NCBI GenBank assembly: GCA_030526515.1
Contig: JAUNCQ010000005.1
Span: 1-52,352, forward strand
Length of the DNA stretch: 52,352 nucleotides
Source of the DNA: Coriobacteriia bacterium
GTDB lineage: Bacteria; Actinomycetota; Coriobacteriia; Coriobacteriales; Eggerthellaceae
Reading direction: 5' to 3'
Below are positions 18,660-29,299 of the stretch, piece by piece. The translations under genes were made by a program, and so were the position numbers. The notes under the pieces are model-generated. The model saw only the letters and a program-made list of their open reading frames with translations. It was not told the DNA's origin and ran no database searches. Positions within the stretch are counted from its first letter, which is position 1. The number at the start of each line of letters is the position of its first letter.

Positions 18660-18700
18660 CGAACAAATGTCTTGACGCGCAAACATTTGTTCGAGATAAT
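18660..18700 (+). promoter_or_regulatory. recA promoter with LexA boxes
   Basis: TTGACG (18672-18677), 17-bp spacer, GATAAT (18695-18700). The spacer contains CAAACATTTGTTCG (18680-18693), the exact reverse complement of CGAACAAATGTTTG found beside lexA. A second half-site CGAACAAATGT (18660-18670) abuts the -35. LexA bound here would block RNA polymerase directly. Confidence 0.9.
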
Positions 18701-27545: not shown

Positions 27546-28217
27546 CTACAGGCGGCGGAAAACGGCCACCACCTTGCCGGCGATGGAGCAGTCGCGGGTG
27601 ATGATGGGCTCCATGGAGGAGTTCTCCGGCTGCAGACGGATGTGGTCGGCCTCGCGGAAGTAGCGCTTGACCGTTGCGCCGTCATCGATGATGGCAACCA
27701 CGATGTCGCCGTTGTTGGCGTTGGGCTGCTCCTTCACGACCACGTAGTCGCCGTCGTTGATGCCGCACTCAACCATGCTGTCACCCCTGACGGAGAGCAT
27801 GAAGGATGCTGCATCGCCCACGATATCCGTAGGCAGGGACATGGTGTCCTCAATGTTCTGCTCAGCCAGAATCGGCACGCCGGCCGCCACGTTGCCCACC
27901 AGGGGTACTTCAACCGTACGGGCGAAAGAGGGGGTCAGCACGTTGCTGAACATCTGGGCACGGGAGGCCTGCTCAACCTCGGGCTCGGATGCTTCGCCCT
28001 CCTGGTCGACCAAGATGATGGAGCGGGACTTGTGCGCGTCGCGCTTGATCAGGCCCTTGTCCTCCAGCGCCTTCAGATGCACGTGGACGGTGGAAGGGGA
28101 GGACAGGCCGAGTTCCTTGCAGATGTCACGGACAGTGGGAGCGTACCCCCTCTCCTCGATGCACTTGCGGATGCAGTCGAGAACGGCCTTCTGTCGCTTT
28201 GATGGTTCGGAGCCCAT
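27546..28217 (-). CDS. lexA: SOS repressor LexA
   Basis: LexA (223 residues) represses SOS genes until RecA filaments trigger its self-cleavage. The N-terminal winged helix (KRQKAVLDCIRKCIEERGYAPTVRDICKELG, SSPSTVHVHLKALEDKG) is followed by the Ala-Gly cleavage site in VGNVAAGVPILAEQ, the catalytic serine in RGDSM and the catalytic lysine in ATVKRYF. The start at 28217 (MGSEPSKRQ) is preceded by GGAAAGGAC; the frame is open further upstream, but through the operator region. The upstream region holds three LexA boxes, so lexA is autoregulated together with the divergent gene. Confidence 0.96.
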   Translation of the reverse strand: MGSEPSKRQKAVLDCIRKCIEERGYAPTVRDICKELGLSSPSTVHVHLKALEDKGLIKRDAHKSRSIILVDQEGEASEPEVEQASRAQMFSNVLTPSFARTVEVPLVGNVAAGVPILAEQNIEDTMSLPTDIVGDAASFMLSVRGDSMVECGINDGDYVVVKEQPNANNGDIVVAIIDDGATVKRYFREADHIRLQPENSSMEPIITRDCSIAGKVVAVFRRL

Positions 28218-28238: not shown

Positions 28239-28308
28239 CGAACAAATGTTTGAATATTTGTTGACATGAACTTTTGTTCGAATTATTATAAACACGAACA
28301 TTGGTTCT
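28239..28308 (+). promoter_or_regulatory. Divergent SOS control region with three LexA boxes
   Basis: Boxes: CGAACAAATGTTTG (28239-28252), TGAACTTTTGTTCG (28267-28280, reverse CGAACAAAAGTTCA) and CGAACATTGGTTCT (28295-28308). The middle box fills the spacer of a near-ideal plus-strand promoter: TTGACA (28261-28266), 17 bp, TATTAT (28284-28289), and the third box covers the expected start site near 28296. The minus-strand lexA promoter is less obvious. Confidence 0.9.
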
Positions 28309-28332
28309 ATGCAAGGAGCAGGAGGCAAACAA

Positions 28333-28638
28333 ATGGCAGAATTCGCAAATATCTCCTTCGTGCAGGGCACCTCGGCACTCAAGATCGAGCACACGGCCCA
28401 TCAGAACGTCGTTCGCCTCGAACAGGAAGACTTCTGCCGAAGCATCTACCAGCAGGAATCCGAGCCCGAGCCCATCACCTACTGCGACTACGTGCGCGAA
28501 TGCGCTCGCGAGGCAGCCGAGGTGATCGCCCACGGAAGCCTGGAGACCACCATGCCGGCCATGTTCACCCGTCCGCAGGCAGCAGTCCTCGGCACCATCA
28601 TCGGCGCCCTGACGCTGTTCTGCATGTTCTTCGCCTAA
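28333..28638 (+). CDS. SOS-controlled small tail-anchored protein, candidate division inhibitor
   Basis: A 101-residue protein that I do not recognise by sequence. It is acidic, with residues 1-80 soluble (QEDFCRSIYQQESEPEPITY, CDYVRECAREAAEVIAHG) and a hydrophobic segment at 82-101 (AAVLGTIIGALTLFCMFF) that forms the extreme C-terminus, so it should be tail-anchored with the bulk in the cytoplasm. GGAGCAGGAGG lies before ATG 28333; ATG 28309 is in frame but too close to the expected transcript start. The promoter has LexA boxes in its spacer and at its start site. The place between lexA and nrdR is that of SOS division inhibitors in other Gram-positives (YneA, DivS, ChiZ), but LysM is absent here. 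Confidence 0.75.
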   Translation: MAEFANISFVQGTSALKIEHTAHQNVVRLEQEDFCRSIYQQESEPEPITYCDYVRECAREAAEVIAHGSLETTMPAMFTRPQAAVLGTIIGALTLFCMFFA

Positions 28639-28802: not shown

Positions 28803-28837
28803 TATGCTGTCCCTAGTCCCATCTAGGAAGGATGCCT

Positions 28838-29299
28838 ATGCGCTGCCCCTCATGTTCGCACCTGGAGTCCAAGGTCGTTGACTCCCGATCCAATGACGAC
28901 AGCACCTCCATTCGCCGTCGAAGGGAATGCCTGAAATGCGGCACTCGCTTCACCACGTACGAGCGTCTGGGCGAAAACCCCATGATCGTCATCAAGTCCG
29001 ACGGCTCCTCGGAGGCATACAGCCGTGACAAGCTGTTCCGCGGCATCCTGGTTGCCTGCGCCAAGCGCCCGGTGAGCGCTGACGCCATCAGCAGCATCAT
29101 CGACGACATCGAGGTCGAAATCCGCAAGCATCCCAAGTGCGAGATCGGATCCAAGGAGCTCGGAGACATGGTCGTGGAGCGATTGGGCCAGCTGGACGTA
29201 GTGGCGTACGTGCGCTTCGCCAGCGTCTACAAGGACTACCAGGACATCGAGGAGTTCATGGGTGCACTGGACGCACTCCAGAAGAAGAACCAGGACTAA
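28838..29299 (+). CDS. nrdR: Transcriptional repressor NrdR
   Basis: NrdR (153 residues) represses ribonucleotide reductase genes in response to bound ATP/dATP. The N-terminal zinc ribbon MRCPSCSHLESKVVDSR and CLKCGTRFTTYER is followed by the ATP-cone domain (VIKSDGSSEAYSRDKLFRGIL, CAKRPVS). I use ATG 28838 because AGGAAGG sits 6 nt upstream and NrdR proteins begin MRCP; ATG 28832 is in frame. It lies beside the lexA region as in many actinobacteria, and dut follows 13 bp later, grouping dNTP-pool control genes. Confidence 0.96.
   Translation: MRCPSCSHLESKVVDSRSNDDSTSIRRRRECLKCGTRFTTYERLGENPMIVIKSDGSSEAYSRDKLFRGILVACAKRPVSADAISSIIDDIEVEIRKHPKCEIGSKELGDMVVERLGQLDVVAYVRFASVYKDYQDIEEFMGALDALQKKNQD

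Follow-up and report, generated by a model that had tools for sequence, protein, structure and literature searches.

Divergently from lexA, in a stretch of 52,352 nucleotides of Eggerthellaceae DNA (the whole analysed stretch is called the window below), lies a gene whose 101-residue product is very probably, to judge from gene order and a conserved N-terminal motif, an ortholog of the YneA/ChiZ-type proteins left after loss of the LysM domain, and which almost certainly stands, as its promoter region indicates, under LexA-controlled SOS regulation. The best explanation overall, which appears moderately likely, is that the product inhibits division as YneA and ChiZ do, is repressed by LexA, lost its extracytoplasmic LysM in evolution and would act by its helix. 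Small lexA-linked SOS membrane inhibitors, some of them LysM-less, are already known. The novelty lies in a form that, throughout the lineage, has nothing on the outer side of the membrane, in its descent from a LysM-bearing YneA-like protein by loss of a domain, in a cytoplasmic motif common to the two forms and in a natural series of reductions down to a peptide of 23 residues.

The lexA-divergent gene, its promoter and LexA boxes

The lexA gene itself occupies positions 27546–28217 of the minus strand and encodes a product with Pfam peptidase S24 and LexA DNA-binding domains. On its divergent side the open reading frame of the SOS protein extends over 28333–28638 of the plus strand, with the start ATG at 28333, the stop at 28636–28638 and the Shine-Dalgarno sequence AGGAGG at 28320–28325 (plus strand), and its tail-anchored, LysM-less product of the YneA/ChiZ type is MAEFANISFVQGTSALKIEHTAHQNVVRLEQEDFCRSIYQQESEPEPITYCDYVRECAREAAEVIAHGSLETTMPAMFTRPQAAVLGTIIGALTLFCMFFA. 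The conserved downstream neighbour is nrdR (28832–29299, plus strand). An alternative in-frame ATG at 28309 would give 109 residues and is a possible start; the ATG at 28333 is preferred, since homologues support it and the ribosome site of the 28309 start is weaker.

The sigma-70-type promoter TTGACA-17-TATTAT (28261–28289, plus strand), which the sequence-only reading had placed divergently from lexA, was confirmed with 11 of 12 consensus bases; on this strand TTGACA (−35) lies at 28261–28266 and TATTAT at 28284–28289, separated by a spacer of 17 bp. Two promoter-like sites were found in 1.7 kb, with 0.5 expected. Compared with the LexA box pattern CGAACN4GTTCG, the region contains three boxes, each with one mismatch and with no strand assigned: CGAACAAATGTTTG at 28239–28252, nearest to lexA and with an equivalent in most family loci; TGAACTTTTGTTCG at 28267–28280, inside the promoter spacer and filling most of it; and CGAACATTGGTTCT at 28295–28308, over the expected transcription start. 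The spacer box and the start-site box had been recognized before, and it is their number that had to be corrected to three by the additional lexA-side box at 28239.

Five one-mismatch LexA sites occur in the 52-kb window against 1.8 expected by chance, three of the five at this locus, and this count taken alone is only weakly unusual. A chance origin of the boxes is ruled out because those at 28239, 28267 and 28295 are spaced exactly 28 bp apart and because the arrangement is conserved across the family, where loci with the gene repeat the phased pair at the promoter and the start site, usually accompanied by the lexA-proximal third box. A count by hand from the locus scan gave the promoter pattern in 41 of the 46 family loci that carry the gene and in none of the 7 without it, and therefore the promoter is assigned to the 101-residue gene and not to lexA. 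The SOS control suggested earlier thus gains support from the LexA boxes together with their conservation across the family.

Boxes of this type are also seen elsewhere. In the recA promoter region of the window a LexA box CAAACATTTGTTCG with one mismatch is located at 18680–18693, after a TTGACG hexamer and ahead of the recA coding sequence starting at about 18742, which is the same design as at lexA. In another locus (L237; G000:C33:31627–31680) three clustered LexA-like boxes, one of them exact, lie just upstream of a putative further SOS gene, the product of which, from the look of the sequence, resembles a radical-SAM protein with a helix-hairpin-helix-like C-terminus. In a genome-wide scan the box was no more frequent than in the reversed control (94 versus 130), so the regulon cannot be defined from the box motif alone.

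Protein layout and kinship with LysM-bearing proteins

The product carries a conserved cytoplasmic motif G-T-S-A-L-K at residues 12–17 (28366–28383, plus strand), which is common to the LysM-bearing orthologs, a second short conserved motif NVVRL at residues 25–29 (28405–28419, plus strand), with the family form RIIxFP, and a C-terminal transmembrane helix at residues 80–100 (28570–28632, plus strand), which ends one residue before the stop. The longer family proteins have in common M-x-x-F...G-T-S-A-L-x-P, then R-I-I-x-F-P, then L-R-x-G...G, and then the helix; G12, A15 and L16 are invariant in the N-terminal motif. The AlphaFold2 model built on a 15-sequence alignment gives helix 80–100 confidently (pLDDT 88–94), a moderate helix at residues 50–67 and disorder elsewhere, the N-terminal half being largely disordered (pTM 0.26), and the description of a 101-residue product with a hydrophobic segment at the extreme C-terminus is borne out by the confident helix. 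The predicted topology is a single transmembrane helix with the N-terminus inside (N-in). The family mean of the net charge N-terminal to the helix is +1.4, and the 17-residue helix core is followed by 0–4 residues in 45 family members, leaving no extracellular C-terminal part. The 101-residue protein has no Pfam or NCBIfam match, the YneA equivalog NF010723 included, and is thus without LysM, as had been stated from the sequence.

For the comparison of loci lexA was located at family level in 138 genomes, at order level in 147 and at class level in 149, and the divergent side was read in selected loci; the window's family is denoted f1 and the named loci belong to Eggerthellaceae. Single-sequence searches with the 101-residue protein returned no matches in viral and genome collections and, among relatives, homologues in its own genus only (40% identity), and further homologues were found via the lexA neighbourhood instead of direct sequence search. 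The survey of Coriobacteriia lexA-nrdR intervals that the sequence-only reading had recommended yielded the tail-anchored protein in 45 of 59 f1 loci (73–136 residues, median 103), a 23-residue helix-only peptide in 7 and no gene in the remaining 7, and LysM forms in sister families.

The lexA-nrdR slot is the same across the class, which supports the YneA/DivS/ChiZ position originally attributed to the gene. Among the sister families (f4, f10 and f2) and at 20 outgroup loci the slot is occupied by an N-in protein that has a single helix and exposes about 76 residues, including LysM (Pfam E 2.6e-5 to 1.3e-10), outside the membrane, for which the best NCBIfam match is YneA (NF010723) with 45–59 bits, aligned up to positions 4–86 of 87; the equivalog cut-off being 60 bits, the sister-family orthologs fall just below it. 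The N-terminal tails of the f4/f10 LysM proteins and of the tail-anchored family were matched by hhalign at 89.4% (P 2e-6, score 32.1), with 30 column shuffles reaching at most 9.3, and the tail-anchored N-terminal motif found no hhalign match in the outgroup LysM N-termini; false open reading frames in L088 and L098 were left out of the N-terminal comparison. The kinship with the LysM forms is drawn from two supports, synteny and a 21-column motif. Independent invention is ruled out by the N-terminal motif common to the LysM orthologs, and the idea of a different, independent design, put forward before, is not supported: the protein appears to be a LysM-loss ortholog of the YneA/ChiZ type with the same N-in layout as ChiZ.

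The LexA+NrdR tree unites the tail-anchored families (f1, f3, f6, f8 and f9) with the short forms of f5 in one clade (94/91), adjoining a LysM clade (98/94) that comprises f2, f4 and f10 and, with an outer tail of 22 residues, f7; the LysM outgroups are at the root. On the simplest reading of this tree LysM would have been lost about three times in the class if it was never regained, with two label changes on the unrooted tree. LysM is in any case a rare domain in the order. Of 82 f4/f10 genomes, 72 have it next to lexA, and 66 of these 72 have no other LysM. Its relocation elsewhere in the genome is ruled out for the window's family, where 37 of 41 sampled genomes, that of the window included, have no LysM anywhere and the 4 exceptions do not have it beside lexA.

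Selection and the helix-only forms

Pooled over nine close pairs, dN/dS is lowest in the helix (0.17), followed by the N-motif (0.27) and the linker (0.42). By these sequence comparisons the gene is real, conserved and under purifying selection in every region, and a chance open reading frame is ruled out by dN/dS. Truncation by frameshift or another artefact of metagenome-assembled genomes is likewise ruled out, as the same architecture is present in isolates, e.g., Gordonibacter, Paraeggerthella, and Raoultibacter; it is also contradicted by the occurrence of this architecture in nearly all f1 loci with the gene and by the absence, in the window, of any LysM reading frame between the stop and nrdR.

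In Adlercreutzia (genus g6, with A. hattorii, A. muris, A. caecimuris, and A. mucosicola) all seven genomes read have, in place of the tail-anchored protein, a 23-residue peptide (type MARYEFPIAFALSTIASFLIFFA) that is equipped with a ribosome site and lies under the same LexA boxes (loci L045, L050, L162–L167, and L180), and dN of this 23-mer is well below dS in every pair. Helix-only proteins of 29–48 residues occupy the same SOS slot in families f11, f13 and f14, a separate clade of the class (L101/L151, L120/L153, L121/L156, L152, L154, and L155). Both gene and promoter are lost in L053/L170, L061/L169, L064/L168 and L181–L184, where at least one LexA-like box is kept on the lexA side; with these 7 of the 59 family loci lacking the gene, the lineage can evidently do without it.

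Known inhibitors, proposed action and alternatives

As in the lexA-linked SOS inhibitor group of YneA, ChiZ, DivS and SosA, the gene adjoins lexA, is divergent from it and lies under LexA boxes. YneA of Bacillus subtilis is similar in its divergence from lexA, its LexA boxes, its small size and its one helix; it has almost no cytoplasmic part and needs LysM to inhibit, whereas the window protein possesses a cytoplasmic tail but no outer part. ChiZ (Rv2719c) of Mycobacterium tuberculosis is SOS-induced and N-in, with a long disordered tail and then a single helix, and its gene presumably also lies between lexA and nrdR; it differs in retaining an outer linker and LysM, and the likeness is one of published layout rather than of alignment. 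The cytoplasmic tail of ChiZ comprises 64 disordered residues and is followed by helix 65–86 and then by LysM, and tail and helix alone cause filamentation (PMC7355643), so that the N-terminal membrane segment earlier ascribed to YneA, DivS and ChiZ alike is wrong for ChiZ.

Two further members of the group have no LysM. DivS of Corynebacterium glutamicum is lexA-linked and SOS-induced with a single helix (PMC3989709, PMC6851548), and is set apart, by description, through its extracellular C-terminus. SosA of Staphylococcus aureus is lexA-adjacent, 77 residues long and also has a single helix; its helix is at 10–30 and its conserved outer residues are essential (PMC6851548), whereas the window protein has no outer residues. 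For inhibitors consisting of the helix only, such as the Adlercreutzia 23-mer, a precedent is the 29-residue SOS membrane peptide SidA of Caulobacter crescentus, which inhibits via FtsW (PMC4211646); SidA is from another phylum and its predicted binding is on the opposite side of FtsW TM7, and analogy, not kinship, is claimed.

By analogy with these systems there is a good probability that the 101-residue protein is a division inhibitor, and the chances that it acts through its helix on FtsW are about even. RecA-driven cleavage of LexA would free the triple-box promoter, and the protein would be inserted N-in, with a disordered cytoplasmic tail bearing the G-T-S-A-L and I-I-x-F-P motifs and a single helix predicted to end flush with the outer membrane face. 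The helix would dock on a septal peptidoglycan synthase, most likely FtsW, and hold division during DNA repair, while the tail would assist and be dispensable, Adlercreutzia having been left with just the 23 residues of the helix. This mode, with the tail as an accessory, is favoured because no surviving form lacks the helix and no other part is as strongly constrained; a check of nine genomes found FtsW/RodA-family proteins in each of them. The YneA helix binds FtsW TM7 and suffices for mid-cell placement, yet YneA without LysM, which still localises in B. subtilis, does not block division, LysM being required for inhibition (PMC13396833). This inert LysM-less YneA is the main doubt about the helix-FtsW mode, and since SosA in turn needs its outer residues, the truncated form could be inactive or changed in role. 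The literature searched contained no expression, localisation or phenotype data for this protein and did not treat the SOS control of division in these bacteria.

The same inactivity of YneA without LysM, together with the missing gene in 7 of 59 family loci and its reduction to 23 residues in Adlercreutzia, would suit a decaying remnant, only weakly useful, whose checkpoint function is gone or going after the LysM loss; such decay is very improbable in view of the purifying selection in every region, the 23-mer included, of the promoter, boxes and ribosome site conserved in most loci with the gene, and of the persistence of the tail-anchored form across several families. It is fairly unlikely that the tail is the working part, its G-T-S-A-L and I-I-x-F-P motifs binding a cytoplasmic divisome protein (FtsZ, SepF, or the tails of FtsQ/FtsI) with the helix as a mere anchor: the N-motif is indeed conserved between the tail-anchored and LysM forms, with the dN/dS given above, but Adlercreutzia, f11, f13 and f14 keep the helix with little or no tail, the helix is the region under the strongest constraint, and the outgroup LysM proteins are without the motif.

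Distinctly unlikely is an SOS-induced depolarising peptide of the TisB/DinQ kind, the helix of which would disturb the membrane potential and slow growth without divisome binding. The helix-only forms of 23–48 residues do resemble DinQ, an SOS-controlled single-transmembrane toxic peptide (PMC3567139); however, the slot is orthologous to that of the YneA/ChiZ-type LysM proteins and the longer members have the same cytoplasmic motif, the Shine-Dalgarno sequence is strong in most members, and no antisense partner was seen among the genes, small RNAs aside.

Activity of the LysM-less inhibitor preferred here would mean that its helix can by itself arrest the synthesis of the septal wall, which conflicts with the LysM-blocking model of B. 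subtilis YneA. The known systems present a puzzle in this respect, as in B. subtilis the YneA helix localises and LysM blocks, whereas mycobacterial ChiZ needs just tail and helix. Because the lineage offers a natural series of domain deletions in the same slot (tail-helix-LysM, tail-helix, helix alone, and no gene), the division-stopping part can be tested with native proteins. It is a nearly even matter whether the whole family runs its SOS division checkpoint by proteins with nothing outside the membrane, down to the bare 23-residue helix of Adlercreutzia; as a candidate inhibitor of a SEDS wall polymerase, this peptide would be very small.
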